Source of the DNA: Mytilus galloprovincialis
Taxonomy: Eukaryota; Mollusca; Bivalvia; Mytilida; Mytilidae
Reading direction: 5' to 3'
Length of the DNA: 64,000 bases
Assembly: GCF_965363235.1 (NCBI RefSeq)
Contig: NC_134839.1
Span: 95,127,743 to 95,191,742, forward strand
Shown: one piece after another, positions 11,807 to 62,374 of the stretch
How the letters are laid out: each line of letters starts with the position of its first letter
Numbering within the stretch: position 1 is the stretch's first letter
The notes under the pieces: model-generated
Seen by the model: only the letters and a program-made list of their open reading frames with translations
The model's database searches: none
What the model was told of the DNA's origin: nothing
Made by a program: the position numbers and the translations under genes

Positions 11807-11853
11807 GCTCTTCAACTTTGTATATGTTTGGCTTTTTAACTATTTTGATCTGA

Positions 11854-12252: not shown

Positions 12253-12290
12253 ATTAAATTATAATCCTGGTACTTTTGATAACTATTTGT

Positions 12291-18989: not shown

Positions 18990-19567
18990 AAATATGCACA
19001 AGAAACTGAAATTAGAAATATAAAAGACAAACAAAGGCTAGAGGCTCCTGACTTGGGACATGCGCAAAAATGCGGCGGGTTTAAACATGTTTTATTTTTA
19101 AATATCAACCCACCCCCTTTAGCCTCTAGCCAATGTAAAATTAAAAAAATAACAATACGCACAGTAAAACTCAGTTCAAAAGAAGTCCGAGTCCGATGTC
19201 AGAATAGGTAAAAAAGGAACTTTACTAGCAGTTACTGACATTCCAGCTCAAGACCTCAATTAAGCTGATTGAAAGATTATGTCGTCATCATATGAATATC
19301 AAGTACAATCCCTCTCGTCAGGGGTTTAGTATTATACCATCATAAAATATATGAGAAGAACATAACCCGTATCATGCCAACAACTGGTTTTAGAATAAAT
19401 ATGTTTATTTCCAATGCAAAGACCATTATAAGTGAATCAATATTGAAAAAGCAGTTGAGTGATTTTATCACGTAGGCAAAATCAGTCACCTGTGTACTAT
19501 AAATACCTGTGTAACCTTCTTCGAAGCCTCGTTTTAAAGCACCAAGGCAAACCCATGGTAAAATCAA
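18990..19567 (-). repeat. Long dispersed repeat, minus-strand copy of 9227-9670
   Basis: Shares gaggctcctgacttgggaca, aatgcggcgggtttaaacatg, agaagtccgagtccgatgtcag, ttaagctgattgaaagattatg and tgccaacaactggttttagaa with the copy at 9227, inverted. The block beyond 19440 is not present at 9227. The 75-codon minus frame at 19340-19567 may be a remnant of a mobile-element protein, but I cannot place it. Confidence 0.6.
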
Positions 19568-22492: not shown

Positions 22493-24361
22493 TTAAGAAT
22501 GTAATAGACATTTTCTTTTCAGTAAAATATCATAGCAGATTTTGGCAGTATAAAAGTAAACATTTTCATCACTAAATAAAAATACAAATTTATCGTCATC
22601 TGACATACTATTAAAATCATGACAAAAAGAATTAGCATGACTAAACAACTCAGCACGAAAATCTGCATATAGTGGACATTTCAAAATTACATGTTTCTCA
22701 TCTTCAATGGTATCATTACAAATAAAACATATTCTTTCATTAATAGGTAAGTTCTGATACCTGCCTGTTTCAATTTTTAGGGGCGCAACACCACAGCGAA
22801 ATTTTGCAAAAGCACTTCTAAATTTGCCTGCAATAGTTTTACAAATGTAATTTTCTACCTTAAATTCTGTTTTAAATAATTTATAAGTTCGAAGTTTGGC
22901 ATATTCATTCGAAACCAACTTATTATGCCATTCAGTTTTATATAAATCAATAGCTAAGCATTCTATATCTTTAATTACATTTTTAGTTAACAATATATCA
23001 CAGTTACAATATGGTTCAAGATTATACTCTTTAAACTTAGTCATCACTCTGAAGCACCAGTTTTTAATTGGCTTATTTCCATACTTATATGACCACATAA
23101 ATACTCTTTTGTTCAATCTATCATTGTCCATTTTACAAAATCTGGACCATAATCTAAAAACAGCTGTCCATTGCTTTACATTGCATGGAATCCATCCCAT
23201 ATCACCATACAGAGATAAGTTTGGTGTATACTTTCCTACACCCATAAAATATCTCATCGCTCTGTTTTTAACGGCATTTATGCAAGAGAATTCTCTTGTT
23301 CCCCATATTGAAGCACCATAATCGATGACTGACCATACAAGTGTGTCAAAAAGCTTTGTATAAGTAGAGTAACAAAAACCACCATTTGATTTACATTTTG
23401 CGATCAATAACCCAAGAGCTCTACTTGCCGACTTAGCAATAGCTTTTGCCATTAAATCATAATTCAAAAATTCTGTAAGATGTAAACCAAGGTAAGTATA
23501 TTGTATTACAATTTCAATATTATCATTACCTAGCATAAATGTATAAATAGACCTTGGAAAAGAAGATGGTCTAAAATGAATAATCTTAGATTTACTCAAA
23601 TTAACACTAATATCATTTTTATGACACCACATATGTAAAACATCTAAGAGCATCTGTAAGTCTGATTCATTTTCAGCAAATAAAACAATATCATCAGCAT
23701 AGAGCAAAATACATATTTTCTCTTCCTCTATTGGAATACCAACATTTAAACTTTTAACCTCATTTACTAAATTATTAATAAAAATATTGAATAAAATGGG
23801 CGATAACACACACCCTTGTTTTAAACCACATTGAACATCAAACCATTGGGTTAAATTCCCATTAACTTTAACACACGACTGTACTTTATGATATAAAGAT
23901 TTTAAAGCATTCAACATTTTACTACTAATTCCTATTGACTCAAGTTTACAAAATAATAAAAATCTGTTTACAGTATCATATGCTTTTTTGAAATCAATAA
24001 AAGCTGCAAAAGTTGATAGTTTACACATTTTTCTTGTTTCAATAATACTTGTAATTGTTGACAAATGATCAATAGTACTACGATTAGATCTAAAACCATT
24101 TTGTTCATCATGTATACAATTTAGCTCATCAAGCTTTACAGTTAATCTTGAATTCAGTACTCCGCAATACAGTTTATATGAAGTTGGCGCCAATGTTACT
24201 CCTCTGTAAGACATCGGGTCCCGAGGGTCGGAAGTCGAACTCTTCGGTATCGGGGTGATTATTCCTCTACTCCATAGCTCCGGTATCATTCCTGTATTAT
24301 AAAAAATGTTGAACACTTGAGTAAGGGCGTTTATAGCTGTCTGATTTTTATACATCTCCAT
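22493..24361 (-). CDS. LINE reverse transcriptase with zinc-knuckle, 622 aa open
   Basis: Copies element RNA into DNA at the nicked target. Visible blocks are YRGVTLAPTSYKL (52-64), FIDFKKAYDTVN (121-132, first catalytic aspartate), GLKQGCVLSPILFNIFIN (179-196), YADDIVLFAE (221-230, catalytic YADD), YLGLHL (290-295) and a C-terminal CFICNDTIEDEKHVILKC (545-562, C-x2-C-x8-H-x4-C). The methionine at 24361 is internal. One in-frame TGA just upstream (24365-24373) separates it from SKAGKSPG, which is the natural upstream continuation. The uninterrupted 1.87 kb frame implies a fairly recent insertion or recent decay. Small plus-strand frames inside it, such as 22896-23321, are shadows. Confidence 0.9.
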   Translation of the reverse strand: MEMYKNQTAINALTQVFNIFYNTGMIPELWSRGIITPIPKSSTSDPRDPMSYRGVTLAPTSYKLYCGVLNSRLTVKLDELNCIHDEQNGFRSNRSTIDHLSTITSIIETRKMCKLSTFAAFIDFKKAYDTVNRFLLFCKLESIGISSKMLNALKSLYHKVQSCVKVNGNLTQWFDVQCGLKQGCVLSPILFNIFINNLVNEVKSLNVGIPIEEEKICILLYADDIVLFAENESDLQMLLDVLHMWCHKNDISVNLSKSKIIHFRPSSFPRSIYTFMLGNDNIEIVIQYTYLGLHLTEFLNYDLMAKAIAKSASRALGLLIAKCKSNGGFCYSTYTKLFDTLVWSVIDYGASIWGTREFSCINAVKNRAMRYFMGVGKYTPNLSLYGDMGWIPCNVKQWTAVFRLWSRFCKMDNDRLNKRVFMWSYKYGNKPIKNWCFRVMTKFKEYNLEPYCNCDILLTKNVIKDIECLAIDLYKTEWHNKLVSNEYAKLRTYKLFKTEFKVENYICKTIAGKFRSAFAKFRCGVAPLKIETGRYQNLPINERICFICNDTIEDEKHVILKCPLYADFRAELFSHANSFCHDFNSMSDDDKFVFLFSDENVYFYTAKICYDILLKRKCLLHS

Positions 24362-24373
24362 CGGAATTTCATC

Positions 24374-25289
24374 TCAACCAGGAGATTTTCCCGCTTTTGA
24401 CAATTTTAAAATATTGACAACTTCTTCATTGGTTATTTCACTATCAAGAATATCATCGGTTATTATGCAACTGTTAACATCTTTTTCGGTAGTTTTATAT
24501 AAATTTCCAGAATTTAACATATTTGAAAAATCACATTTCCATTTATCTAAAACAATTTTCGGATCGTATCTTCCATTTTCACTTCCATTGGAATAATTTG
24601 CCTGTTGTTTCCTACTCCAATTTTCCCGATTTTCCTCCAAAATTCTTTTGGATTATCTTCTAAATTCTTTAATTCATCTTGCATACTATACCAGTATTGG
24701 CGTTTGGAACGTTGACACGCTTTATCGAAATGTTTCCTCTTTTGGACATAATTATGACGTAACGTACTTTTATTACAGGTTGCTTTAATCCATATTTTTT
24801 CGGCACTACAAACACAATTCCATAAAACGGTTAGTTCTTCATTCCGCCATGGTTTTTGCATCTACGGCGTTTGTTATTAAATCCATCCGTAATATATGTT
24901 TTACATGGAAGTTTACTTGACATCTCTGATTTTACCACTTTAACAAATTCACAATACATCTGGTCTAAATCGACTTGTGACTTATTTGAGTTTTCAAGGT
25001 CTAAAATAAGTTTGTTTAAGTCACAAATAGCTTCCGAATTCAATAGAAAGTCCTGAGGTATGTTTTGTATGTTTTGTATGTCGTACTTCGTCTTAACAGA
25101 TTGTTTGGTATTTTCACGTGCTATTTCAGTCACTAAAAAGTCTAGTGACATCTCTCATGATAACATAGAATGATCTGGAACAATTCCTTTTAAGTCATAT
25201 TTTCCGAAACCATTTACAGTGTCAACTAAAGTACTTGCACGACTTACACTAAACTTTTCAAAATTTTGTAATTTTTCGTAAGGTACTAT
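24374..25289 (-). pseudogene. LINE linker between endonuclease and RT
   Basis: Three overlapping minus-strand pieces are colinear with LINE proteins: 25151-24831 (MSLDFLVTEIAREN to CKTYITDGFNNKRR), 24861-24547 (KPWRNEELTVLWN, KRKHFDKACQRSKRQYW and ELKNLEDNPKEFWRKIG) and 24640-24374 (IVLDKWKCDFSNML and SKAGKSPG). Frames change near 24855 and 24570. Stops separate FGKYDLKGIVPDHSMLS from the first piece and the linker from the endonuclease. Confidence 0.75.
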
Positions 25290-25955
25290 TCAGTAATCTA
25301 CTACACTAGATCCTCGAGTAGATACGTACGTAAAGTCGTTTTGAATCGTATTTCGGCCATTAAGTATACAACAGCTTATATCAGATAGAAAATCGCAAAA
25401 TATACTTCCATACGTATTACATTTAAAATCAACTACATTTCGTTCTGGTAAGGAATCTACGCCTGGTATATAGTCTAGCATATCACCACATCGGCTATTC
25501 CAATCTCCACATAGATAAAACATATTTTCATTCGGAATTGTATAAATATCACCGATAATATTGTCAAAAAATTCTTGTGCGTTTACAGCTCTAGTAGAGT
25601 TCTCTGGTGGGAAATACACCACGAAAACATTTTGGACACAGTTTTTTTTTCCGTAAATCGAATCCACATGATTCCATCTTTACTGCTTTCCACAATTTCT
25701 ATTGAAAACTGGTCAGGAACTGACTAAAACACCAACTCCACCCGATCCACATTTCGCACGTTTATGTATATTATTTCGGTTATGGCCAAACCATTGATAT
25801 CCATTCATTACAATAGAATCATTTCCTCTTAAGTGTGTTTCCGCCAGTCCAACTATACGCAGATTACAGTGTGCGATAATATCGGTTAAAAGGTTAAATT
25901 TATCCCGTTTACAATCAGTATTCCATCCATTTTAGTTCCAAAATCCACATTTAAC
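25290..25955 (-). pseudogene. LINE AP-type endonuclease domain
   Basis: The order of motifs is that of the exonuclease-endonuclease-phosphatase fold: NGWNTDCKRDKFNLL, RIVGLAETHLRGND (catalytic E), GSGGVGVLV, VFVVYFPPENSTR, YLCGDWNSRCGD (metal-binding GD.N) and VDSLPERNVVDF. The domain makes the target-site nick. Two stops and one frameshift lie in the N-terminal third (about 25660-25930). The C-terminal 125 codons (25667-25290) are open. The usual final SDH-like block is seen just downstream as VPDHSML. Confidence 0.8.
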
Positions 25956-42584: not shown

Positions 42585-42755
42585 TGTTTGGCAAAACTTT
42601 TGGTGTTATAAAAATGCTCTCCAACTTCGTACTTTATTTGGTCTTTTTTAAACATGTTTGATTAGAGCGTCACTGATAAGTCTTTTGTACACGAAACTCG
42701 TGTCTGGCACAAATACAAAATTTCAATCCTGATATGTTTGGTATCTATGATTAGT
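42585..42755 (+). pseudogene. Diverged retrozyme end with degenerate hammerhead
   Basis: tagctgtgtttggcaaaac, gctctccaacttcgta and gagcgtcactgataagtc align with 12120-12290. The core reads CTGATAA, and stem II and stem I are mispaired. Confidence 0.7.
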
Positions 42756-45449: not shown

Positions 45450-45640
45450 TATAAATGAACTAAATTTAAAAATCATAAAAGACGAACAAAGGCCAGAGGC
45501 TCCTGACTTGGGACAGGTGCAAAAATGCGGCGGGGTTAAACATGTTTTTTGAGATATCAACCCTCCCCCTATACATCTAGTTAACTGTAGAAAAACAAAC
45601 ACACAGCAATACACACAGTTAAACTCAGTTGAAAAGCTGT
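45450..45640 (-). repeat. Dispersed repeat, gaggctcctgacttgggac tail piece
   Basis: Contains aggccagaggctcctgactt, aaatgcggcggggttaaaca and ttaaactcagttgaaa. Colinear with 19010-19190 and the inverse of 9540-9670. Confidence 0.65.
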
Positions 45641-45829: not shown

Positions 45830-47546
45830 TCATTGGACAGCAGATTGATTATATTTTCCTTGGAATGACTGATTAGCCAAACTAGCTGCCTCGTCTCTGC
45901 TATATCCATAGGCCCAGTACATACACATCAATTCTCCCTTTGTTTCTATGTCGTCATCAAATTCGGGACTGAGGAGAAGATTTCTACATTCTTCTAGATC
46001 TGTTACATCCTGTCGAAATATAATACACTATCATTATCAATTTATCAATTTGCCCGAAAGTGTTAACATGAATTTCTATTTTATGTAACTTCTTGTTTAA
46101 ATCTTTTTAATTGTATGAATAAAACGAGATGTAAGAAAACAAAAGCTATCTGGATAGAGAAACACGGCACAGATAACCGAAAGACTCTATAAGAGGTCGA
46201 CATATCATAATATAGTATTCAACTACAGAAGATTGTGTCCTTTTTAAAGAAGGATATAATTGATAACAAAAACCACAAATAAATGAAATTATACTGTATC
46301 ACAGAATACTCGCAGTTACCGAAACTTGACGTACATAACCTGAAGATGAGAAATCATCCCGTCAAAATTCATGTATCCAATGCATGGGTCCAAATTTTGA
46401 AATTTCATCAAACAACAACACTCAACATTCCGAAAACAAAACCCAAGACGTACTAACACAAAACGAACACTACGAACCAAGATTTAAAGCAGCCTACAGT
46501 AAATGTAATTGTGATATCCTGAACATCTAAATAAATGGAATAGATGCATTCTACCATTCAACAAACTTTAAATTATCTAGTGAAAGTACATCACTTACAT
46601 GGCGTATTTTGCAGTAAAAGTATCCGGTTCAATATTAAAACTGGTGTAGTGTAAAACAATCCTTGAATAGTTGAGATCAGTTCTTAAAAGCGGCTAGAAC
46701 AAATGTAGTTGAAAAACACGTTCACCCAAGTTAACATTACAAATTAAGATTTCAATTTAAAAACGCCTTGTTTAATATATAAATTGTAAGGCCTTTTTAT
46801 GTGGTTGCCAGTAAAATAACTATCTACCTTCAACCAAAGGACAAGGTTGTTATCTGTTCTAGCTCTCTCGGGAAAAAGTTATATAAGATGGATTCGGCTA
46901 ATATTCTATTTAAGTCCGTTTTTGTCATACAGTTTCTCGCGTATTCTTGTATTGATAGATTCTTGGCTTCCAATATAAATTTTGAGCGTTCCTTTTGAAG
47001 TTAAATCATTCGAACAAACACGCCATGACAAACAACACAAAGCGTGTTATTCTCCATATTTTAATACGATACATTTGTTTCTAAGTTTGCTATATGAAAC
47101 ATAGTTGAATTAATTGTTCATCGGTTTTGTCGATCTGTATGATGACTAACTACACTATTACGTTAAAGAAAATGAAATACGTTTATAAATTATGACCTTG
47201 AATATCTTTTTGTTATCTTTATTCTCCTTCTGATATATATCATATAATGTATAGCATTTCTGTATGTAATTATGCAATTGAAAGATAATTGCATCCGACG
47301 CATGGCAAATTGTCTGACTAGTGGGAGCCTAATGAACCTAATTTACAGTTGCTTTAAAACTGCTGTACAAGCCATTACAGGGGAATGTTTGGATGGAAAG
47401 TAATACTACCCTGTTAGCTTATATAACTTATCGACGTACTTTTGCTGATTTTCCTGTGCAAGTTAAACTTGACTTACCTGCTCATTATGTGCCTGTAAAA
47501 TGTTACTCCAGAACAACATGTAACATATAAGGAAGAGAAACTGCAT
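45830..47546 (-). CDS. Small secreted two-cysteine protein, gene 1 (two coding exons)
   Basis: Exon 1 (47546-47478) encodes MQFLFLICYMLFWSNILQA plus HNEQ, a hydrophobic signal peptide, and ends at a consensus GTAAGT donor. Exon 2 (46009-45830) follows a ttatatttcgacag acceptor and encodes 59 residues to TGA. The reading frame joins in phase 0 across a 1468-bp intron, giving 82 residues and a mature chain of about 63. Key residues in exon 2: C8 (EECRNLLLS), C29 (CMYWAYGYSRDEAA), and acidic stretch EFDDDIET. The paralog at 57592-62374 has the same C-x20-C spacing and exon layout. A disulfide-linked extracellular peptide is inferred. I do not recognise the family. The frames at 45667-45909 (-) and 46801-46998 (+) are shadows or unrelated. 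Confidence 0.72.
46830..46991 (-). CDS. Candidate alternative or relic terminal exon in gene 1 intron
   Basis: 53 open codons to TGA after an AG in phase 0, so exon 1 of gene 1 could splice to it in frame. It contains IQEYARNCMTKTDLNRILAE, which resembles TQRYMECM...EEARKFAE of the second gene. It has only one cysteine and a poor pyrimidine tract before the AG. It could be a decayed duplicate exon or chance. Confidence 0.3.
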   Translation of the reverse strand, partial: ERSKFILEAKNLSIQEYARNCMTKTDLNRILAESILYNFFPRELEQITTLSFG

Positions 47547-47946
47547 TGTACCTGTAATCAACATGAATAATACGGAGTGATTTCAATTAGACAGCCAGGT
47601 AACAATACAAACATATTAAATCAAAAACTAGAGAGATCAACACACATCCTTAAAAATATCCTTTCTCAAAATGTCAAGCACTGTTACTAGAAAGTAACAC
47701 GTACTAAAGATAAACTATTAACCCTTACATGTATTTATAATGATTCAGTATAATGCAGTGTACAAGTTATTATTATATCTTCTTTACAAAAGTTTATATA
47801 TTTTAATATGCAGTCATTAATATCAGACTATAATATAGCACTAAAACCAGACTATAATAATATAGCAATCATCGAAATTTTAAAAGTAAATACTCCTAAT
47901 TAGATCGTACTCGTCTGCATGTTGAATGGTTAAGGACAACAATATA
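47547..47946. other. Upstream of gene 1, no further exon seen
   Basis: A ttgattacag acceptor-like site lies 5 nt before the ATG, so a 5' untranslated exon upstream is possible. None was located. Confidence 0.35.
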
Positions 47947-48484
47947 TGGGTCATTTTCAAAAAAATGTCGAATTTTGAAATTGAAAATTTTATTAAAAGT
48001 CACTTATTCAAACACCCCTCTACATAAGCAAATCTAAACAAACAGTACTTTTACAACAACATATTAAAAGATGCAATCTTAATGATGTCATACAAGAATA
48101 TCTTGAGACATTTTTTGATCGGTGGTACAATATTTTGTCTTTCCTATTACCATTTTCAAAAGAAATTTTGGGTTATTAAGAAAAGGTTTAGATAGAATGT
48201 TAAGCTTGTTTTACGTAGCCAATTAGATGGTTTTCAAGAGAATACACTTCTATATATATTCATTCTGTAAAATAATAGATTATTTGCCAATTTTCCAGGT
48301 TGTACTGCAAAATGCCTATAAACAATTTTTTTCAAAGGTTGTAAAAATTACCACCAGTAATGCAAGTCTAAGATAGCAATTTATATTGTTCGGCATTTTT
48401 TCACCCTTTCAAATAAACCCAACATTTAATCCCTCATAAGTTAGTTTACTTTTCTCTTTATTTCATTGGTAACAGGAATGTACG

Positions 48485-48755
48485 TTTCTGATAAAAGTCT
48501 ATCCTGTTACCTTTTTGTCTATCCTGTTAGTAACTTACCGATATCAGTATTGCACCTGTAAATGCTTAACTGGGAAGATTAAGACGTTATAACCTTAAGA
48601 TGAGTTCAAATAATGAAATATTTCATTCATTTTGCACCTATATGTTAAGATAAAAAAAAATTAACGACGTTTTTGTCTACAATTGTCTATCCTGTTATTG
48701 TAACCATAGCAATCATAGTAACAGGATAGACATAACAGGATAGAAAAATTTCTTC
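48485..48755. repeat. Subterminal motif cluster GTCTATCCTGTTA
   Basis: Three forward copies (near 48497, 48518 and 48688) and two inverted copies (taacaggataga, near 48720 and 48733). At the other end of the element ggcaacaggatggacatg (near 51158) and ggtaacagcatagacatg (near 50980) are diverged relatives. Such clusters often bind a transposase. Confidence 0.6.
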
Positions 48756-48761
48756 GTTTTT

Positions 48762-48790
48762 ATACGCCCGTCTTTTAGACGGGACGTATT
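48762..48790. repeat. tatacgcccgtc hairpin
   Basis: atacgcccgtct / agacgggacgtat form an imperfect stem around a 4-nt loop, then ccgtccgtccgtctgtccgt. It resembles the hairpin at 50796-50828. Confidence 0.6.
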
Positions 48791-48835
48791 ATGGTATACC
48801 GTTGTCCGTCCGTCCGTCTGTCCGTCCGTCGTCCA

Positions 48836-49553
48836 CACTTCGGACAATAACTCAAAAACACTTTCACCAATTTCCATGAAACTTAAGTGAATTGTTTATA
48901 TCTATTGACGTAAGCTCCCTTTCGTTTTTTTTTAATTTCAGATTTTAAGTTTTGGATTTATGGGGCTTTATTCATAAAAAAAGGGGGGATTTTCAACACT
49001 TCGGACAATAACTCAAAAAGGCTTTCACCAATGTCCATGAAACTTTGGTGAATTGTTTATATCTATTGATGTAAGCTCCCTTTATATTTTTATAAATTTC
49101 AGATTTTAAGTTTTGGATTAATGGGGCTTTATTCATAAAAAAAGGGGATTTTTAACACTTCGGACAATAACTCAAAAAGGCTTTTACCAATGTCCATGAA
49201 ACTTTGATGAATTGTTTATATCTATTGATGTAAGCTCCCTTTCAATTTTTATAAATTTCAGATTTTAAGTTTTGGATTAATGGGGCTTTATTCATAAAAA
49301 AAGGGGGATTTTTAACACTTCGGACAATAACTCAAAAAGGCTTTCACCAATGTCCATGAAACTTTGGTGAATTGTTTATATCTATTGATGTAAGCTCCCT
49401 TTCAATTTCTATAAATTTCAGATTTTAAGTTTTGGATTTATGGGGCTTTATTCATAAAAAAGGGGGATTTTTAACACTTCGGACAATAACTCAAAAAGGC
49501 TTTCACCAATGTCCATGAAACTTTGGTGAATTGTTTATATCTATTGATGTAAC
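48836..49553 (+). repeat. 160-bp tandem repeat, about 4.5 copies
   Basis: Units start cacttcggacaataactcaa at 48836, 48997, 49156, 49316 and 49475, with periods of 159-161 bp. Each holds catgaaacttt.gtgaattg, tctattgatgtaagctccct and tatggggctttattcat. The units are highly similar, so the expansion is recent. Confidence 0.9.
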
Positions 49554-50397
49554 AAATAATACTTAATGAAATCTGATGAAAACATAAAATTTGTAAAATC
49601 TTTAGTTCAATTTAAAACATTAAATTTCTTGTAAAAAATAGGTTCCATGAATGTCATACGTTTGTACTATTATTGAAAGGTTGCAAGGATGAAAGCACAT
49701 TAGCAGTCCCTGAGATACTAACTGTTCCCTGAGGCATATATCATTTTATGATAACATTTTTACTATCTAAGCTATGGATAAAAATCAAATACTGTTTTTG
49801 CATATAGGATGTTTTACTCTTGTTAAAATTGGTTGCAATTGAAATCACAAATGATACCTTAGCATTGCAGCTTTTTATAGAGTTCGGTTTCGGTGGAAGG
49901 GTTGAACGCAATAAAAAATGTTATAAAACATAACTAGTCTACAATAGCACATAATAAGTGAACAAGTGACAACATGAAAATCCTAACATGTGACTAAATA
50001 TTCCTTAAATGTTAAAGGGTGTCATTTTATGAAAAAAATAAGGAAATCAAGTCTCCTAAACATTTATCAATATTATCATCTTGTGAATATTCTAAACAAT
50101 AAAATGGTAATAATCATTATCCACCATATTAAGCACCATTTGAACAACGTTTGCATACATCTTTGTATAATTTAGTATGGATTCCTTACTGTGTTCAACA
50201 GAATCTAACTATGAGCAATATACCCCAAGAAAATTACTTTCTTTCAAACTACTATAAAATTTGGAAATCAGCCATAGAATTACTAAAACCAATAATCATA
50301 TATCACTTTCCTTATATTGCATCGAAGACTTCTATGTTATATGCCAATGTTAATGATATTTGTTTTTTATGCTAAATATTGAAAAGCTGAACTAGCT
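49554..50397. other. Interior of the element, no motif
   Basis: AT-rich. Two plus-strand frames (49990-50175 and 50151-50375) have no recognisable features. On the minus strand this would be the 3' flank of the acidic frame. Confidence 0.35.
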
Positions 50398-50511
50398 TTA
50401 ATCATCAGTGTCTTCTTCACTGTAATCACTGTCCTCATCATCAGAAAAATCCTCATTTTCATTCTCAGAAGAGGCCTCCTCATCATCAATGAAATCTTTA
50501 TCTTCATCATC

Positions 50512-50809
50512 AATGAAATCCTTACTTTCATCATCTACTTCCTCATTTAGATCATAACTTTCAGTAGAGTCACTTTCACCATCTTCACTTTCCCTGTTAT
50601 CTTCTTGCTGCTCCTCATTGTCATTGTAGTCTTTTTTGCCATTTTTATACGCCCGTCGTCAATGAAATCCTTACTTTCATCACCTACTTCCTCATTTAGA
50701 TCATAACTTTCAGTAGAGTCACTTTCACCATCTTTACGTTCCCTGTTATCTTCTTGCTGCTCCTCATTGTCATTGTAGTCTTTTTTGCCATTTTTATACG
50801 CCCGTCGTC
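50512..50809. repeat. 149-bp tandem duplication
   Basis: aatgaaatccttactttcat to tttttatacgcccgtcgtc occurs at 50512 and 50661 with only a few differences. Because 149 is not a multiple of three, it shifts the acidic frame. Confidence 0.9.
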
Positions 50810-50843
50810 TTTCAAACAACGGGCGTATCATGCGCTAAAGCGC
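50796..50843. repeat. Hairpin pair: atacgcccgt stem and gcgctaaagcgc
   Basis: atacgcccgt (50796-50805) pairs with acgggcgtat (50819-50828). gcgctaaagcgc follows at 50832-50843. On the minus strand this matches a bivalve transposon end that I recall as agggctgcgctttagcgcat. Confidence 0.6.
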
Positions 50844-51550
50844 AGCCCTTTATTGATAACTGTTGTGAAATAACTACTTCCTTTGGTGAAGTGATTATGG
50901 TTTTCTATTGTGAATTTGGTTTCCAACACGTTATTGCACTTTTTACAAGCATACTGTTGGTGTAATCAATCAAAATTGTTGGTAACAGCATAGACATGAA
51001 AAAAAGTACTCTATGTTTTTTACTAAATGTCTTGAAATTTCTTTTCTCTACACTTTCATTCAAAAAACGATAAAGATTACTTTGCACTTTTGAAATCAAC
51101 ACTGACTGATTCAATATTCATAGGGAGAATAATTTAACGGCTTATTTAAGTAGAGGCAACAGGATGGACATGAACCTCCCGTACGCTGATTGAATTTAGT
51201 TTGTAGATAATATGTTACATAAAATGGTAAAGAAGCTACGATTTTTCGTTAGAATAATAATTAACTTTCTTAAAAAGTCACTTTTGCAGATATCAAGGCG
51301 ATCAGAAAATCGTAAAAAATCATTTAAAATGTGTTTTTCTGACACTGTACGCACACAAATACCCCCAAAATCGGACTTTTAAAAATGCAGTTTAATCTTA
51401 CCAAAATAGATGTAAGGTGTGATTATTATTAATGTTCTGAATCACAAATCCGACAAGCTTTCTTTAAACCATTACAACTGGAATTTTCATTAGAAATAAT
51501 CAATTTAGCATGGGTGTACTGAAAATTTGACATTTTTTGAAAATGACCCA

Positions 51551-52221
51551 TATATGCACCCAACAGCTTTATGGGAGGATACTACAAAATGCTACAAGAA
51601 AAAAATTCAACGACGATATAATTGTCTTACTTCTGACAATCGCTGGTATTTGTAACACTTCAGCTCACATTACCTTTTAGAGAAAGTTATATTATTACAT
51701 ATGTTTAAATAAAAACACCCAGCATAAGATTGCGAGACTAACAGACACAGATACTTACTTTTAATAAACTATGTGACGCCTCATAAATCCCAATAATGTA
51801 AAATATTAAATGTGTACATTGGACATTGTGTAGGCGTGTTCGAAATGTCATCGAGATATTATAAGCTGATATACTTCAACGTTTTCATAATCAATAAATT
51901 GTAGAAATGTAATGTGCAAGCAACTATAGTTCTAATATATGGCTATCCAAGTATTTGCTGTTAATTCATATACGAATGAGATTTATTGAAATCTTTCCAT
52001 GCTAGGTTTTGTTCAGGAAGTAAGGTTAAATGTAGTTGTTCGCATCATTGTCCTTAACGATCTGTCTTTGATGGTTAGTTGTTTCATTGATAATCATACA
52101 ATATTTCCTTTTTTCTAGATTTTAATAGAAACAGATACTTTCTTTTCACAAATTTATTTTAAAAAGCACGTTCATGTTGTCTGAACCCAAGTGTTGACTA
52201 GGGTATGGAAATATCGTCATA
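51551..52221. other. Spacer, nothing firm
   Basis: A diverged inverse SINE-like end (ttagttgtttcattgataat) lies at 52073. acttacttttaataaac near 51756 would be a minus-strand GTAAGT donor, but the upstream sequence is not open. Confidence 0.35.
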
Positions 52222-52350
52222 GTCTTTATAGATATAAAAGATGTGGTATGAGTGCCAATGAAACAAATCTCCATTCAAGTCACATTTTTTAAAAGTAAAC
52301 TATTGTAGGTCAAAGTATGGCCTTCAACACGGAAATGTGGCTACATACAT
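52222..52350 (+). repeat. SINE-like repeat
   Basis: Marked by agatgtggtatgagtgccaa, taaactattgtaggtcaaag and tatggccttcaacacgga. The following 52351-52600 frames are not supported as genes. Confidence 0.6.
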
Positions 52351-53404
52351 GTATCATCTAGCTTTGAAAACCTTGATAAAAATGGGTGTATGTTTGGTTG
52401 TTCTGGATTTAAAAAAAAACAAACACGTTCGGTTAGAACAGGAGCGATATCTCCAGAAGAATACAAAATTCTCTTCAATAGCCCATCGTGTGTCCGTGAG
52501 TGGCATGTATTACTTGATTTATTTCACTTGACTGGGCGGAGTTTAACCGGTTCGCTCATAATAAACCAGTCGATCTATAGATACGTGTTTTAGGATAAAC
52601 TCATCAATTAAGTGTCCAGTAATTGTATTGTAAATTCCTTTGATGACACTGGTAGGTGATTAGAAATCAGGATTTATTATAACGGCAATCATCCGTATCA
52701 CACACATCTTCAAATAGACTGTCCTTATGCAAATTAAAACATAAGCTCCGCCCGATCAGTTGAAAAAACATTGGTAACACGTAGGAAAATGTTCATTGAT
52801 GGCAATATCCAACACACCTTTATTTTTACTTGAGCAGTAAAAATCCTTTTTGGATTTATTGTTTACCTTTACTTCTTTTTGTCCTGAAAATATATGGAAA
52901 GTTTGTTCCTGGGAGTAATGTAAACATAAATCAATGGATCAACCATGTGCTGTATTGGTGGGAAATGTCAATGATATACCAGCTGTAATTCAGTCTTATT
53001 TCCAGTGTCAAACTAATTAATTCTCTATGACGTGAAACTCTGTTTGATCTTGTGATCGAAGTCAAACTAGCTTAATTAAATATAGTAATTCAACCGTACT
53101 GTTAATTAACAAGATATGTTTTATTTATTTAACTTTTATTTGAAAGAACAATATGCAAAGGTCGTAGTATTTCGCTAGTATTTCATGTTTTTTAAACAAC
53201 TGAAATTTCTCAACAAAAACTAACCATTTATATACACCTTAAGTTTGTTATTTTAAGAACCAAATGATATCTTAAATTTCGTGCCTTCAAACAGATTTAA
53301 GATTCAAGATTCAAGATTAAAAGGTTTAAGATACGATAAATAGTCAAACAATATATTGTACCCTCTCTAAAAGTGTGGGCTATTATATAACATTCAGATT
53401 GTTC
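52351..53404. other. AT-rich spacer, no gene seen
   Basis: Two overlapping plus-strand frames (52337-52593) have no motif. agattcaagattcaagatta near 53305 is a short tandem repeat. Confidence 0.4.
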
Positions 53405-53835
53405 GTAATTTCGTTTGTTCTTCTGTCCGTCCGTTGGCCTAACAAATATTTCTGGAACACTTTTCTCAGATACTTATCAACAGAAAGACATTTTGTATGG
53501 TCAGCAGCCTGTTAGTCGTGCGGTGTAACGGTTCAGCACTTTTCGGATCTGTCAACCACCAACTTCTTGTTTGACGACACTTTAAAATTTTCAATATATT
53601 ATTTTTCGACACACTATACTCAAGTACTACCGAACAGAAAGACTTCACACTTGATCAGCAGCATGAACGTGATGAGTTGTACCGTGTGAGCACTTAACGG
53701 ATATTCCGGACACCTATTTCCTGTTTGTCGATGCTTTGATTGTGCAATATTTATTGAACTCAGTCTGTTGAAAAGAATGACTTGATATTAATCAGTCAGT
53801 GGGGCACCATTGATGAGTTGTAACTAAGGATTTTT
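53405..53835 (+). repeat. Diverged ~140-150 bp tandem repeat
   Basis: Three units marked by caacagaaagacattttgta (53477), cgaacagaaagacttcaca (53631) and tgaaaagaatgacttgat (53770). Each is followed by (a/c)agcagc or cagtcagtgg, then a tgatgagttgta-like block and cacttttcgga / cacttaacgga. The units are much more diverged than those of 48836-49553, so the array is older. Confidence 0.6.
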
Positions 53836-54080
53836 CAGTTCGGTCAGACAGCTACATATTGTTATCCAATTCTTTGAAATGAATTAATAGTGGGAAATTC
53901 TAACCACAACATCGTGTGCATTCTTGTTCAGGTTCATCTCAAGATTGAAAAAATATGGCCGTGTTTACACCGCAAAATCTACTCTCAGTACAGGCAATTA
54001 TATGCATCTAGGAATGTTTTGAGGCCTGGCTGGACCTAGATATATTAAAGTTAGACGTAGATTATGTTTTAAAAACTTAC

Positions 54081-54125
54081 CTGGGTTTTGATGTGCTTTT
54101 TCCAGTATGCAGATTATAGCAAAAT
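54081..54125 (-). pseudogene. Possible relic of the small-gene signal exon
   Basis: The minus strand reads gcacatcaaaaccCAG before a GTAAGT donor, matching gcacataatgagCAG|GTAAGT of gene 1 exon 1 with one extra base. The translation IICILEKAHQNP resembles SNILQAHNEQ. No ATG in frame. Confidence 0.3.
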
Positions 54126-54254
54126 AAACTTACACCTACGTTTCATTTGATAGAGTTCACTCAGTTGTACACCTCTGTCACATATTGTCTATCTAATGTC
54201 CACATAATTTATTTGAGTAGGTCTAACCGTGCTTTCAAATTAATCCCCACCCCA

Positions 54255-54420
54255 ATGAAACAACTCATACTGCAGTACAGGCTCTTGACTTGGGACAGGC
54301 ACATACATACAGAATGTGGCGGGGTTAAACATGTTAGCGAGGTCCCCCCATGTTTTTATAAAATTAAAACATTCAGTAAAAAATCTGCACAGTCCAGCTT
54401 CAATTAGGCTGATCGTTAAC
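54255..54420 (+). repeat. Dispersed repeat tail piece
   Basis: caggctcttgacttgggaca, gaatgtggcggggttaaaca, tgttagcgaggtccccccat and ccagcttcaattaggctgat. Same tail as in 33241-33856 and 45450-45640. Confidence 0.6.
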
Positions 54421-54529
54421 TTGAAAAATAAGATAAAAAATGGAATTTAATTATGCACGCTCCTTTAAATTCATGAAGCTGGCTAAGGTATAAAAATATT
54501 AAGTCTCGGGCGTTATTGTGAAAAACAGT

Positions 54530-54860
54530 AAAATCACAAAAATACTGAACTCCGGAGGAAAATTCACAACGGAAAGTCCCTAATCAAACGGCAAAATCAA
54601 TTGATAAAACACATCAAACGAATGGACAACAACTGTCATATTCCTGACTTGGAACAGGCATTTTCAAATGTGAAAAAATGTTGGATTGAACCTGGTTTTA
54701 TAGCGCTAAACCTCTCACTTGTATGACAGTCGCATCAAATTCCGTTATTTTTACAAAGATGCGTGAACAAAACAGACATCATCGGTAAAATAGTCAACAT
54801 ATGGTTACAGCAATCATCACTGTGTTACAATCTCAAAACAAACAAACATTTACAAAAAGG
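54530..54860 (+). repeat. Dispersed repeat, well-kept copy of the 1104-1350 family
   Basis: atactgaactccggaggaaa, ggaaagtccctaatcaaacg, aacaactgtcatattcctga, ggattgaacctggttttata and gtatgacagtcgcatcaaat. This is the longest clean copy in the window. Confidence 0.7.
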
Positions 54861-55249
54861 CACAAAAAGCATCTATCAAATTAAAAAACACAATAACAGG
54901 TGAATGCTTTGGTCAATCGAGGAATTGGTATTACGGACACTATTATCAAAGGGATGAATTCAGTTTTACCTTTTTGAAACAATTGTTCAGAATGTCATTG
55001 AATCCAAAAATTACTGTATAGAATAACTAAACAAACAGATGTTACCAAAATGGTGAGGACAGTCGTTGTCTTAAACATTAGAGGAAATAAATATTATATT
55101 GATACTTTGATTGAAATAGTCTAATGACTTTACGTGATGTTTATTCGCTCTCTTTATCTTCGAGAGTTAGTGAATCGTATGAAATTTTAATAAGGAGCGT
55201 CTAATATATATAGAAGATTTTAACAAATTTACATAAGTATATTTAGAAA
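54861..55249. other. Spacer, nothing recognised
   Basis: No coding signal. Confidence 0.35.
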
Positions 55250-55565
55250 CTCATTAATGATTGGTACCAAGCTTATTATTTGGAACGCAAAACGCGCGTT
55301 TCGTCTAAAGAAGGCTCACAAATTACGCTTGAACCCAAACAGTTTTAAGACCAAACAAAATACTAAGATGAAAAGCATTGAAAACCAGAATTTCCAAATA
55401 CGGCTAAGAGTATCTATACTTGGAGTAAAGAAATTGTACAATTCAACAAGTTATAAACCGTAAATTCTTAGAAAATGAACCAATAAAATATAGTTCATGT
55501 CAACATACAAGTCAGGTGATAACTCCGGTGATAAAACGTCCACCAAATGTGGCATCGACCTACTT
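55250..55565 (-). mobile_element. Retrozyme-like monomer, minus strand, diverged
   Basis: Read on the minus strand: gtcgatgccac.tttggtggacgtttt, a tatcacc block, ctcttagccgtatttgg, caatgcttttcatcttagta, then a hammerhead remnant (ctttagacgaaacgcgcgtt) and a ttggtacc end. Same order as 11930-12290. CTGATGA has become unrecognisable, so it is inactive. The 68-codon frame at 55257-55463 is a shadow. Confidence 0.7.
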
Positions 55566-55900
55566 GTTGCACAAACACATCAAATATACAAAGCTTATAA
55601 TTTGTCAGAACATTGAGAGCCAAAACTTCAGAAATGAAGTTCCACATACAACTAAAGTTATATTTGCCTGTGGTAGAAAAGGCTAAGTGTTATTAGAATA
55701 ATTCAATAAACTGCACGTTTAAAAAAATGAACGGATCGATAATGTTCATAATTAACACAAAAAAGTAGACTACTAGGTTCGTGGTACATATGGGGAGTAC
55801 GAAACATTCTCCAGCGGTGGCATTGACTAAGACTACTAGGTTCGTGATACATATTGGGAGTACGAAACATTCTCCAGCGGTGGCATTGACTAAGACTTAG
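55566..55900 (-). mobile_element. Second retrozyme-like monomer with amplified segment
   Basis: The minus strand shows ctcaatgttctgac, gttttggctctcaatg and taccacaggcaaat, which align with the monomer body. No ribozyme remains between it and the neighbour. Its gtcaatgccaccgctgg...gtttcgta segment is present twice as a 63-bp tandem. Confidence 0.55.
55768..55893. repeat. 63-bp tandem duplication inside a retrozyme copy
   Basis: gactactaggttcgtg.tacat starts at 55768 and 55831. The two units differ at only a few positions. Confidence 0.9.
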
Positions 55901-57089
55901 TGGTTGCCAAAAATGTAAAGATACCTAGCTTATAATTAAGACATCCTGTTAAATTTAAAGGCAAATTAATGTATGATTCTTAATCTCCTTAGTTGACGCT
56001 TTTATTTTTTGAAAACATTATCATGAAAATATGCAGTATATTTTCTTTCACATTAAATCAATAATTCAGATATTAAGTGGTCACTCCTTAAATATTTTTG
56101 GAATATATTTATGACTGTATAAGCACAACTGTTTTATGCGTAAAGGTGTATAAAACAAAAGATGAATCAGACGAAGAGTTATTAATGCAATAATGCATTG
56201 AATATGCTATAATTAATGTGAATTTATAACAAACGAAACATACTTTTAAATAACAATTGGCATGCAAAATAAAAGACAAAAACACAAATTCGTCTGGGTT
56301 TGGATAAAGCAAAAGGAATTAAGTTTTAATGAGTTTTATTGTTAGAAGCAAGTTTGGATTCATCTAAAACAATGTTGACACGTTTTTAATCAATCAGTAT
56401 GTCTCTTTATCATTGACATTAGTGACGTTCCTGAGCAATTTGTAAGTCACAGTCGAAGTATAGTATGCCACAGAAGAATAATGATAACAGAATGACGACA
56501 ACAGTTCAATTGTCATTCTCGTTTCAAGTGTAGGTGATAAGGCATATAGACGTTGTACCAAAACAGTTTAACCAGAAAATCTATGTTTCCTCTAAATGGC
56601 TTTAATCTTTCCATTATCTTTTCCCCACCTCTGTAAATAAACAAGAAAAAACTTGTCATTGGAGAATCGATAAACAAAGAATAAAAACAGATTTTCTAAT
56701 CATTTCTATTTTTTTTAAGATTGCTACACTACTTGTTTCCTTTGGATAACATTTATTTCCTTCACCGAACTTAAATTCGTGTGTAAACATTTTAACCTTT
56801 AGGGATACTTAACCCTACGATGATGTTGATACACATTGATATATATACATTTGACCTTCTCGGAAAGATACTGATGTTTTCATATGATTTGAAAATACTT
56901 TGCAATACAAACGATTATAGTTTATAGCTGCTCCCATCTGTTTTGTTATCTGTGTCTCAATTAACTATATGATGAGGTTATTCAAACGCATGATATTAAG
57001 ACAGAAAGTGATACATCGTAAATGGAATTATCAATCATAATGGATAATGTGAAAGGGATATATATTCGACTTCAATATAAAAACAAGGA
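55901..57089. other. AT-rich spacer, no gene seen
   Basis: The 67-codon minus frame at 56109-56312 has no motif. Confidence 0.4.
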
Positions 57090-57200
57090 TATGTAGTATG
57101 AAAGCCAATGAGACAACTATCCATCTGAGCCATATATTATATATACTGACGTAATAATCCAACATACAATGTAAAGACCACAAAGTATTTGTTTTTTCAC
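57090..57200 (+). repeat. SINE-like repeat, diverged
   Basis: ggatatgtagtatgaaagcc, then aatgagacaactatccatct. Confidence 0.5.
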
Positions 57201-57264
57201 ATGTTTTTGTGAAAAGTAATCGTTTAATCTTATCTAACAAATCTATTATAAGGAGCAAATGATC

Positions 57265-57500
57265 AGTATGCTGGAGTTTTGTTGAAATGGAGGAAGACCT
57301 GCTCAACAAATAGTCAGCATTTCAATTGGAACGAACTGTGCGACCCTACTTGTCGACTTCTATTTTCCTATAAATCGGAGTTCCTTCAGACACTTGTAAA
57401 AAACAAGATTGTCAAAGAAGCCAAGTCATAATATTTCACATTCAAATATGTTGATGATACAGCGGTCCACAAGTTCAAAATACTGGTAAAAAGACACTTA
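57265..57500 (+). mobile_element. Penelope-like RT fragment
   Basis: GTNCATLLVDFYF and, in another frame, a YVDDTAVHKFK word correspond to the GTNCAPLLADLF and YIDD blocks. Decayed and short. Confidence 0.6.
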
Positions 57501-57587
57501 AATTACCGAGATAACAATTAAATGTAAACAAACATTTGATATAGGATACTAAGCTATTGTTACAAAATATAACTAATGAATCGATAC

Positions 57588-57593
57588 TTTATT
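57588..57593 (-). terminator. Poly(A) signal overlapping the gene 2 stop
   Basis: The minus strand reads TGT TAA TAAAG: AATAAA begins inside the stop codon. Confidence 0.45.
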
Positions 57594-60500
57594 AACAAAA
57601 TAATATTTCTTTACCCATTTCAGCAAATTTTCTTGCCTCCTCTTTCGGAAATCCATAAGCCCAATACATGCATTCCATATAGCGTTGAGTGACTTTTCCC
57701 TTTCCTGATTCGTCGCTTAAAAGAATATCTCTACAATCATTCGTCCAATCCTCATCTGGTCGCGCCTGTAAAGATATAAATCCCCATAATATAGTTTCGT
57801 TTCAATATAAGTCTTGTCACTTTATAATTGTCTAAAAGTATAAAAAAACATCAAAATATAATAACCTACTTAAAAAAAAAAAACGATACCAATACAGCAA
57901 GCTACTAGATTTCATTCAAAATTTCAGCAATCACAATACTATCCTGATCAGGTGTACAAAGAGAGATAACAAATACAATTTTGATATTGACCTCACTGTG
58001 CTAAAATAAATGAATTGTTATGATTTTGTTGATTTATCATACGTTGCACGTTCATGCACCTGTTTCGTAGATTAGGGATATCATTTGCTCTCCTATTCTG
58101 AAAGGCTCACTAATTCCACTACTTTGCGATCTTCCAAGTTGTCGTAAGTAGTAATCTGCTAAACATTTAATATTTTCTTCATCTTCTCTATTACCCAAAC
58201 TAGTCAGGTCTGTCATTTTGAAGTCCATCTATAAACGATATGCATCTGACTGTAAGTCGACAAAGAAATGACATGCACAGTCAATTATTGAACTGATCGG
58301 CTAATTTTTCAAAAATCATTTTTCTGAAGCAGCAAAGCTAAATATTTTGTAACTTTACATGATAAATAATTGGGACCCACTACAAACGATTTTCACTCAC
58401 TGAGATCGGGTTGTAAATAAAGGGTCACTGGAAGGACAAACAACTTATTTCCGATTTGGGTTTCAAAATAAAACCCAGGGAAACGCATCAACTTTAAAGA
58501 AGAAGAAAACAACGGAACAACAGAAACACTGAACTGTAACAGTTAAACACGCCAACAAATGTTTTGATACCAACTGTCATATTCTTGAGAGGGTACATGC
58601 CATTTTAATTGTTACCTTCATCATACATGACCGTCTTTTTGCTTTAAATGGATAAATGACATGACCACCAATCACTATGGTTACTAGTATTATAAATCAT
58701 TTTTTAAAAATCTGTTCCTGCATTGAATATTTTATATCAATTGTTTGGCTCATGTTCGCTTTCAACCATTTTATTTGATAAATACACACTAACAAACTGA
58801 TCAATGTTGATAAGGTATGGACACATAGGATTAAACTTTTACATTCAAATCTAAATTTATTTTTTTTAGTGTTCTGTCAATTTTTTTTATATTTGGCACC
58901 TTCATTTTAAAATCTTGCAAGATAAGTCAATTGTATGTGAATATATCAAATGAGCGATACCTAGAATCTCTATTTTCTTCTGAGAAGTGGAAGGCTTATC
59001 GTTCATAAATATTGCCAGGCTATAGGCTAAAAAACAAAAAAATAAGACACAGATATTCTTTCCAAATGGGTAACAAGGTAATATTGCTGGGTGTTTCAAA
59101 ATGATTCACGAAAAAGCCTTTGGCTAAAATAAGTCTATGTAATCAGCTATAAAGACCGAGCTTCAGAGTTCTTATGGGACTACGTACTTGTGGGGCAGTA
59201 TGAACCAGATGTGTATACTTAACAAATTCAAATGATCTCTTAGAGTGTATACAATCTTAGTCTTTTTTCTCTTGCAAAAGTATTAAGAACATTGCACTTT
59301 TTTACCCTTTAGAAAAGTATTCCCCCCTTTTTTTTAATTAAGACATATTGAAAGAAATAAAAAAATGTAGATACACGTATCTTGTTTTGGGAAGATGTAC
59401 GTTTTAATTGGCATTCCTCTGGGAACCAATTGTGCTCCTCTTCTTGCTGACTTGCTCGTATGAGGCTGAAGTCATACGGGAGCTTCATATGCAGTATTGT
59501 GATAAGCTAGAATTATCTTACAACTACATGTTCATCTATAAAAATTACTAGAAAACACCTGCATATAGAGCGTGGTTAAAGTATGTAATCTGTTGTAGGA
59601 TGAAATTTTGTCAAGATTTTATGACTAAAGAAATTCAGGAAAGGTATCAAAAGTCATAGGTACTTGATGAGAGTAACATGTTATGTTTGTTTTCTGTATA
59701 CTATAAACATAAATATTCCATAAAAAGGTGTATTTTCTATTTACTATCAATTCCAAGTTTACTATCCACGGCAGTCACTGATATATTGAATGAGACTCTC
59801 TAAATAATATATTAGTGACCGCTGTGGATAGTAAACTTTTAATTAGTCTCTATATAATATACCAGTGACACCCGCACAATCGCGGGCATTAAGAGCGTGG
59901 TTGAAAGTATTTCAAGTATTGTGGGATGAATTTTTGTAAAAGATTTTATGATTGGAGAATTTAAGGAAAGGTACCAATAGTTATCAAAGGTACCAGGATT
60001 ATAATTTAGTACGCCAAAAGTCATATGTACTTGGTGACAGGAAACTTTATTTTAGTCCTCTGCCTTTTTCCCAAAGTCTGTATTTTTTTTTTTGCTTTCT
60101 GTTTTTCTGTATACTATGCACATAAATATACCACAAATAAAATGTATTTGCTATTTACTATCAATTCCAAGTTTACTATCGTCACTATCCAAGGAGGTCA
60201 CTGATATATTACATAGAGACTCTTTATATACTCGTGGATAGTAAACTTGGAATTGATAGTAAATAGCAAATACACTTTATTTATCGTATATGTATGATCA
60301 TAGTATACAGACAAACGCGAAAATAATGTCCTGTCCTCAAGTACGTGTGTAAATAATGTATTATTTTAAGACAGTCATAAACGGAAGTCTTGTCTATGAC
60401 TTAAAAGTCCGTCCGATGACGGAAACAATAAACAAACTTCTTTATTTTTGATTTTTTCTAAAAATAACCCAAACTGAATAATCATAAAACAAATGCGACA

Positions 60501-62374
60501 ATGCATGGTACCTATACGACACATATGCATAATGATAAATTTATTGTGGAAGGAAGAAAAGCGACACACAAAATGAGGTCTTTTCATTTAATAGTATAGA
60601 TGACATCTCATTTGATAATGGAAAGTTTTGTAACTATTTTGAACGCGTCTATTTTTATCAACTAGAAATAAATAAGACAATAGATTTCCTATCAGGATTG
60701 CTGCTTGTCAATAAAGCTACATAAATGAGGGTACAAACAAGATTAAAATCACTTAGAGGAAAATCAAATCGGAAAGTCCCTAATCACACTGCAAACTCAA
60801 ACGACAAAACACATAAAAAACGAGTGGACAAGAACTGTCATATTCCTAACTTGGTACAGGCATTTTCAAATGAAGAAACATGGTCTTATAACGCTTAACC
60901 TCTTAATTTGTACAACGGTCTCGTCAAGTTCCGATATATATTTATATACAATGATGCGTAAACTAAACAGACATAATGAATAAAATAGTCAAAATATGGG
61001 TAACCTCAGTCATTCTTAAATGTCACGGATGCCATCAAGAGATCTCTGTCATCATTGAAAATCTGTTTCAGAGATAACTACTTATATGTTCCAATTGTCG
61101 GGACCACAATCACTTCCTCGTCTTCGAATATACAAGTACATGAGCATACTGCCGATGGTAGGATCTTTTTACCCTTTCGAAGCACCTGATATCACCACCA
61201 TGTTTTGTTGAGAGTAGTCTCTAGGTTTCTATGCTGTGTTTTGTAGACTTGTTTATCGCTTGATGGTTTTTCGTCTTTTTTGTCTTGGCATTGTCAGTTT
61301 TCGACTTTGAATATTTCTTCAGTATCATTCACATTACGATTATTGAAATAATTATAATAAAAAAAAACTTGCCATATAGTTTATAGGGTTTAAATAGTTA
61401 ATGCTCTTCAACTTTGTACATGTTTGGCTTTTTAACTGTTTTGATATGAGCGTCACTGATGAGTCTTATTTAGACGAAATGCGCGTCTGACGTATTAAAT
61501 TATAATTCTAGTACCTTTGATAATTATAATCACACTTTTGTAATTTTGTTGCACTAAAATACACATCAAATCCAAAACAAGTTCATCTTTTTATTCAACC
61601 GATTAAAAAGTATTCAATTTTGTAAAAAAATTAGCAGGCCAACACCATGGGAGTTCTAAGATAAACATTTTAAAGCTTATTTGTCATAGAAGACGTTGTT
61701 TATATAAATATTGGATTTATTAAGTTTCGATAAGCCGCAAATGCTTGCAAGAGAGATGCCAAGACAACTAACACAGAGACCATATAAAAAAGGCAATTAC
61801 ATCTACTTAAGATGTTCGAACAAATTATTTATATTATTCAAGATTAAATATTACACATTCAGTTATAAAATAATGATGATAAATACCAAAGATGGTACTG
61901 ATTTCAATAATAACGGTACCTCCGACAACATAAAATGAAAGTTTCAGACAATTTAATTGCTTTAGTGTGGTTATTCCTTTTTCGAAGCAATAACAATCTG
62001 ACTTGTTTGATGGCGTCATGCGACGTAACGTTTTGAGTGAATCATAATGTCATACAGATAATTATTTGGAGGCTACGTCAATAAACAGACGACGAATGTC
62101 AGGTAGTGGCAATGGTTGTCAATAGCTCTAACAGACAAAAAATGTACAATTTACCCTTATTTCAATATCCGAGATCAAGGAAATCCATTAGGACATTTGT
62201 GCACAATCTCGTTTTTAAAACACTCGCGTATTCCTCGTGTAATTTAAATAAATCAATTTAGAATATGAAGTTTAAGCCTCAGAAGATACATGTAACAAAA
62301 GTAGTAACACTGACCTGAATTTGTTGTACATTCCATGAAAACAAAGATAACGTTAGAATCATGACGAAATGCAT
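57592..62374 (-). CDS. Small secreted two-cysteine protein, gene 2 (two coding exons)
   Basis: Exon 1 (62374-62315) encodes MHFVMILTLSLFSWNVQQIQ, a signal peptide, and ends at a GTCAGT donor. The terminal exon (57765-57592) follows a tatctttacag acceptor and encodes 57 residues to TAA. The join is phase 0, giving 77 residues. In the terminal exon C11 (NDCRDILLS) and C32 (CMYWAYGFPKEEARKFA) have the same 21-residue spacing as gene 1, and a third cysteine is last. Charge differs: gene 1 has an acidic loop between the cysteines, while this one has GKGKVTQR. The 4549-bp intron holds another open exon (58052-58228) and repeats, so the exon 1 assignment rests on phase and similarity to gene 1 exon 1. 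Confidence 0.62.
57766..58051. other. Intron sequence of gene 2
   Basis: AT-rich, nothing recognised. Confidence 0.35.
58052..58228 (-). CDS. Candidate alternative terminal exon in gene 2 intron
   Basis: 58 open codons to TGA after a cgtttatag acceptor in phase 0, so gene 2 exon 1 could splice to it. It contains ENIKCLADYYLRQLG and PFRIGEQMISLIYETG. GE.M...Y..G loosely matches GELMCMYWAYG of gene 1, but the second cysteine is absent. It may be an alternative ending, a diverged paralog exon, or an independent gene with an unseen first exon. Confidence 0.42.
   Translation of the reverse strand: MDFKMTDLTSLGNREDEENIKCLADYYLRQLGRSQSSGISEPFRIGEQMISLIYETGA
58470..58620 (+). repeat. Dispersed repeat, 1104-1350 family, diverged
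   Basis: acgcatcaactttaaagaag, aacacgccaacaaatgtttt and gataccaactgtcatattct. Closest to 2041-2260. Confidence 0.55.
58621..59395. other. AT-rich spacer, no gene seen
   Basis: The 65-codon minus frame at 58902-59099 is a lysine- and phenylalanine-rich chance frame. Confidence 0.4.
59396..59560 (+). mobile_element. Penelope-like RT core fragment
   Basis: GIPLGTNCAPLLADLLV is the canonical Penelope block before the YIDD box. The following YEAEVIREL fits. Very short and decayed. Confidence 0.65.
59555..59870 (+). repeat. Tandem unit A with foldback
   Basis: gagcgtggttaaagtatgta, ttttatgactaaagaaattc and tctgtatactataaacataa. It then has an inverted repeat, aagtttactatccac / gtggatagtaaactt (59752-59766 and about 59823-59838). 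Colinear with 59880-60317. Confidence 0.65.
59880..60317 (+). repeat. Tandem unit B with long foldback and retrozyme relic
   Basis: Same order as unit A. Between aggta and cataggtac-like words it carries an extra agttatcaaaggtaccagg...tagtacgcc block (59977-60020), which is the inverse of a retrozyme 3' end. It then holds a palindrome with 45-bp near-perfect arms (60136-60180 and 60237-60281) and outer arms extending to 60107 and 60310. Confidence 0.75.
60318..60739. other. Spacer, nothing recognised
   Basis: No coding signal. Lies within the gene 2 intron as modelled. Confidence 0.35.
60740..61030 (+). repeat. Dispersed repeat, 1104-1350 family
   Basis: ggaaagtccctaatcacact, aagaactgtcatattcctaa, cttggtacaggcattttcaa and aatgatgcgtaaactaaaca. 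Confidence 0.65.
61390..61530 (+). mobile_element. Retrozyme end with hammerhead
   Basis: atgctcttcaactttgtaca to ctagtacctttgataattat is colinear with 12159-12290. Upstream body blocks are absent, so this is a short copy of the ribozyme end. Confidence 0.75.
61450..61493 (+). ncRNA. Type I hammerhead ribozyme, canonical core
   Basis: CTGATGA (61456-61462), stem II GTC/GAC around TTATTTA, GAAA (61476-61479), minimal stem III ATG-CG-CGT and cleavage nucleotide C61487. Stem I has six pairs, and the G-U at position 3 of the 11854 copy is here A-U, which is a compensatory or stabilising change. It lies in the intron of gene 2 on the opposite strand. Confidence 0.85.
61531..62314. other. Intron sequence of gene 2, nothing recognised
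   Basis: Small frames at 61711-62019 have no motif. Confidence 0.35.

Follow-up and report, generated by a model that had tools for sequence, protein, structure and literature searches.

Two diverged genes for small, predicted secreted proteins sharing a CMYWAYG signature in Mytilus galloprovincialis

What do two small genes with a common CMYWAYG signature encode, and are they related to one another or to any described family? The question is raised by a stretch of 64,000 nucleotides of the Mytilus galloprovincialis genome (NCBI RefSeq assembly GCF_965363235.1, contig NC_134839.1, positions 95,127,743 to 95,191,742 of the forward strand), hereafter called the window, whose own numbering is used below. 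We favour, at a rough probability of 0.55, the reading that they are two diverged paralogs of two coding exons each, specifying a secreted, acidic, helical mini-protein with a probable disulfide and a role in extracellular recognition. A first-pass annotation had placed two genes with phase-0 introns on the minus strand, and its coordinates, junctions and motifs proved exact when the sequence was read again. In gene A, a signal-peptide-like first exon of 23 codons (47478..47546, minus strand) ends in the phase-0 donor CAG/GTAAGT (donor score 12.7) and is followed by a phase-0 intron of 1468 nt (46010..47477) and by a terminal exon (45830..46009) of 59 codons and a TGA, which carries C8 and C29 within CRNLLLS and CMYWAYGY..DEA. 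Gene B, also on the minus strand, has a signal-peptide-like first exon of 20 codons (62315..62374; phase-0 donor CAG/GTCAGT, donor score 8.2), a phase-0 intron of 4549 nt with several repeats (57766..62314) and a terminal exon (57592..57765) of 57 codons and a TAA, with C11 and C32 within CRDILLS and CMYWAYGF..EEA and a third, C-terminal cysteine.

The reading frames of both genes are open and their splice signals canonical. Both introns end in AG, preceded by a moderate share of pyrimidines (9/15 and 10/15). An AATAAA starts 32 nt past the stop of gene A and another overlaps the stop of gene B, which fits terminal exons. The starts of the two terminal exons are separated by 11.8 kb, and those of the two first exons by 14.8 kb. 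The distance of 21 residues between the paired cysteines of each exon-2 peptide, as given in the annotation, was confirmed by recounting (20 residues lie between them), and each whole protein contains three cysteines. Splicing, secretion and a disulfide are predicted for both genes.

The homology of the two terminal exons is established. When the exon-2 peptides were compared by BLASTP against all 2897 open segments of at least 15 residues in the window, they matched each other with 43.6% identity over 39 residues (E = 8e-9), and tblastx gave 40.4% over 47 residues (E = 6.2e-8). Their local alignment score of 94 lies well above the maximum of 54 reached in 20,000 shuffles. Across the 39 core codons, the differences at codon positions 1, 2 and 3 number 12, 12 and 22, a pattern which indicates that the protein has been conserved, as in coding DNA. 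At the DNA level, the two loci share a single 39-nt match within the terminal exon (E = 0.032), with no other convincing alignment between them (best other E = 0.11), so the duplication is probably old, and the sequences point to genes A and B being old, diverged paralogs. A profile built from the two sequences detected no further copy in the window (next segment at E = 0.69).

The frame is under constraint, as the substitutions in the core show. By the Nei-Gojobori method, the 39 codons have a dN (nonsynonymous changes per nonsynonymous site) of 0.46 and a dS (the synonymous equivalent) of 1.33, giving a dN/dS of about 0.35; synonymous sites were changed more often (13/21) than nonsynonymous ones (33/96; rounded counts, Fisher p = 0.026). 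The 28 flanking codons give a dN of 0.36 and a dS of 1.07, and the 11 middle codons a dN of 0.81 and a saturated dS of 2.79. The annotation had described a sharp difference between the cysteines with the flanks kept, and from this a diversifying peptide. Its first part stands to the extent that nonsynonymous change is faster in the middle (13/26) than in the flanks (20/70; p = 0.057), which is suggestive of a freer loop between the cysteines. The second part is not borne out, as the core value is about 0.35 and that of the middle stretch does not exceed 1, although estimates drawn from two sequences cannot settle whether selection was diversifying. A faster middle would also be expected from relaxed constraint in an exposed loop.

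The first exons were assessed by enumerating all ATG-to-GT stretches of 14-39 codons with a donor score of at least 4 on both strands of the window, which yielded 89 candidates. Four rows, at three distinct places, reached at least the level of the weaker of the two noted exons in both hydrophobicity and donor score, and two of the three places are the first exons of genes A and B. The proposed signal-peptide exons of 20-23 codons are thus supported by rank; since the threshold was taken from the noted exons themselves, this is a ranking rather than an independent test. Their hydrophobic cores have Kyte-Doolittle means of 2.74 and 2.61 over 10 residues. It was also observed that an acceptor-like sequence, TTGATTACAG (47547-47570, minus strand), ends 5 bases upstream of the gene A ATG, hinting at an intron in the 5' untranslated region such as PMC10138031 describes for CRP-I genes. 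By eye, there is no comparably clear acceptor before the ATG of gene B.

The AlphaFold2 models of the exon-2 peptides have a mean predicted local distance difference test score (pLDDT) of 75.4 and a predicted template modelling score (pTM) of 0.58 for gene A (helices 5-12, 15-19, 24-33 and 38-57), and 81.5 and 0.66 for gene B (helices 5-15, 18-22, 27-36 and 41-55). One model was led by the gene A peptide and the other by that of gene B, and in both the four helices fall in the same register, the cysteines lying in helices 1 and 3. Both peptides are acidic, with isoelectric points (pI) of 4.05 and 4.79 and 12 D/E residues each against 4 and 9 K/R. Neither protein contains KR or RR, and a single RK occurs in that of gene B.

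On the favoured reading, exon 1 would encode the signal peptide and exon 2 a compact four-helix body, leaving a mature protein of about 57-63 residues after the predicted signal-peptide removal. One disulfide would staple helix 1 (CR[ND][LI]LLS) to helix 3 (CMYWAYG). The aromatic residues of helix 3 would form the core, and its glycine would terminate it ahead of helix 4. The CR[ND][LI]LLS and CMYWAYG[YF] parts look structural, and the paralogs differ most between them; the short stretch between the cysteines would be exposed and freer to vary. The proteins may then act through extracellular protein-protein recognition, as a ligand, an inhibitor or a humoral or mucosal factor, and the specificity of each paralog would be set by its loop and its C-terminal end. 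The C-terminal cysteine of gene B could permit dimers.

Several observations weigh against this reading. The similarity between the first exons is marginal, being reached by 2.9% of shuffles, and the helical amphipathicity is significant in one of six helix segments. The alignment given to AlphaFold2 consisted of just two sequences, and the cysteine in exon 1 of gene A and the terminal one of gene B leave the pairing unproved. Furthermore, while a strict search for phase 0-0 middle exons of 8-69 codons returned none, its rules would also reject gene A's own acceptor and gene B's own donor, and looser rules give weak candidates: one of 13 codons in the gene A intron and two overlapping ones of 17 and 10 codons in that of gene B. 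No middle exon is common to both introns, the gene A candidate being unlike those of gene B, and tblastx between the loci found nothing convincing beyond the terminal exons (next E = 0.14). The model with two coding exons is the simplest, not the sole possible one. It is conceivable, if rather improbable, that the terminal exons derive from larger or differently started proteins, or that one copy is a decaying pseudogene, the hydrophobic exons upstream having arisen by chance. The shortness and marginal mutual similarity of the signal exons, the one equally good candidate elsewhere in the window, the weak middle-exon candidates and the several repeats in the gene B intron all favour such an origin. 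However, a candidate lies within 4.6 kb at each locus, on the correct strand and in the correct phase, and both frames are intact, with constrained substitutions.

We then consider whether the proteins belong to a known family. Pfam returned no family at E <= 10 for either, and neither NCBIfam nor the PDB sequences contained a relative; PDB sequence matches to DDX23 (E = 1.2) and a CDK5 activator (E = 0.32) were regarded as noise. With Foldseek, there were no matches at E <= 0.001 in the PDB for A or B, nor in BFVD for B. Profile-guided scans gave 44 pattern stretches in GTDB and 20 in IMG/VR, none of which was confirmed. Exact scans for the codons of CMYWAYG hit one viral and three bacterial places; none of the four translations has the CR[ND][LI]LLS or EEA part, so that these matches are ascribed to chance. 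No paper containing the motif strings of the signature was found in the open library searched, and among the topical papers listed none names the signature in its title or the beginning of its abstract. The annotation's statement that no known family bears this signature therefore holds for Pfam, NCBIfam, PDB, BFVD, IMG/VR and GTDB, libraries that contain no general animal proteome, and the family may already be present as uncharacterised animal entries.

Typical processed neuropeptides are unlike a globular helical body without KR or RR sites. In both genes a signal-like exon does precede a short body that carries a pair of spaced cysteines, which would also suit the precursor of a peptide hormone or of a neuropeptide containing one intramolecular disulfide, but we consider this unlikely: the absence of KR and RR sites, with the single RK in B, argues against a processed precursor, and the predicted body is globular and helical. 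Insect odorant-binding proteins (PBP/GOBP) are secreted and all-helical, with a disulfide between helices 1 and 3 and six conserved cysteines. A and B resemble them in being, by prediction, secreted and all-helical, and their cysteines, placed in helices 1 and 3, could be so joined, which might suggest a small carrier of hydrophobic ligands, like an odorant-binding protein or a saposin. This appears very doubtful, as the proteins are about half the length, have three cysteines each in place of the six-cysteine pattern, and match neither a Pfam family nor, significantly, a fold; the lone pheromone-binding protein returned by Foldseek (E = 9.3) is at noise level, and 57 residues offer little room for a cavity. 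EF-hand proteins were likewise set aside: the helix-loop-helix outline is alike, but no complete calcium loop is visible by eye, and the Foldseek matches to caltubin and calexcitin (E = 1.6 to 7.6) are noise, with no Pfam family found.

Antimicrobial peptides (AMPs) are mostly cationic. The pI values of 4.05 and 4.79 leave A and B without a net positive charge. At the sequence level, they were compared with AMP families through Pfam, which may lack some of these families. Acidity argues against a cationic membrane-lytic peptide, which, like a classical neuropeptide, is less likely than the favoured reading. The two genes do share a signal peptide (predicted here) and a small mature product with the mussel AMP families, which comprise myticins, mytilins, mytimycins, myticalins, mytimacins and big defensins according to PMC7653742. 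Membership in a secreted AMP family akin to these multigene families is nevertheless improbable, in view of the acidic exon-2 peptides with 2-3 cysteines and without KR or RR, even though the small size, the signal exon, the encoding of the mature part by the last exon and the neighbouring paralogs resemble the CRP-I and AMP gene plans (PMC10138031, PMC7653742). Mussel CRP-I is described in the former as a multigene family of small secreted precursors with the mature peptide in the last exon, a knottin with the array C(X3-6)C(X1-7)CC(X3-4)C(X3-5)C and a KR/RR propeptide site. Like CRP-I, A and B are, by prediction, small secreted precursors with the body in the last exon and more than one copy. 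They differ in having two cysteines in exon 2 (plus the terminal one in B) instead of the six-cysteine array, a helical structure by prediction, and no KR/RR propeptide site.

An origin in mobile DNA, which the annotation had named as one outcome that would overturn it, finds no trace within the window: none of the four exons lies in repeated DNA there, and at E <= 1e-6 none is overlapped by a non-self match, with the dust filter on or off. Repeats occur nearby. The gene B intron holds a near-palindromic repeat with the outline of a miniature inverted-repeat transposable element (60101-60316 and 59660-60344), which aligns with its reverse complement over 219 columns at 83%. A dispersed repeat at 61400-61527 has copies at 12159-12286 and 11806-11931 (90-92% identity) and is matched more weakly at 42613-42706 and 55222-55379. 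Another repeat, about 200-370 bases past the gene A stop (45458-45636), matches 9529-9690 and 19004-19182 at 83-87%, and a 159-bp tandem repeat spans 48835-49552 (4.5 copies at 95%). Also inside the gene B intron, an open segment of 58 residues (58055-58228, minus strand) is weakly matched by the Pfam family RTP1_C1 (E = 0.036, 14.6 bits, cut-off 25.9) and may represent a stray exon, or a pseudogene fragment, from another gene; its PDB matches, to a designed TIM barrel and a spike S2' construct (E = 0.011 and 0.012), were taken as chance. Between the two genes lies a strongly acidic open stretch (50401-50834, minus strand) whose frame is shifted by a 149-bp tandem duplication, and in which Pfam found only TRM13, below the cut-off (E = 0.016). 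Farther away on the minus strand are a reverse transcriptase frame resembling that of a long interspersed nuclear element (22493-24361; RVT_1, E = 1.9e-38), preceded by shorter frames on the same strand (24547-25667), and a zf-RVT-like fragment (4735-5055) below the cut-off (E = 1.7e-4).

Small secreted multigene peptide families are already a known kind in mussels, as PMC10138031 indicates. According to PMC7653742, the mussel genes that vary by presence and absence commonly include taxonomically restricted families whose function is unknown. The pair described here looks like a genuine small gene family, still in want of an explanation, and not like a novel type of system. More tentatively, it could represent a family so far undescribed and confined to molluscs, whose members would be acidic four-helix mini-proteins with a single disulfide; their conserved CMYWAYG core, carrying an exchangeable loop, would serve as a scaffold for recognition unlike that of the cysteine-rich peptides. 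The precise signature and the two junctions allow one such candidate family to be traced in transcriptomes.

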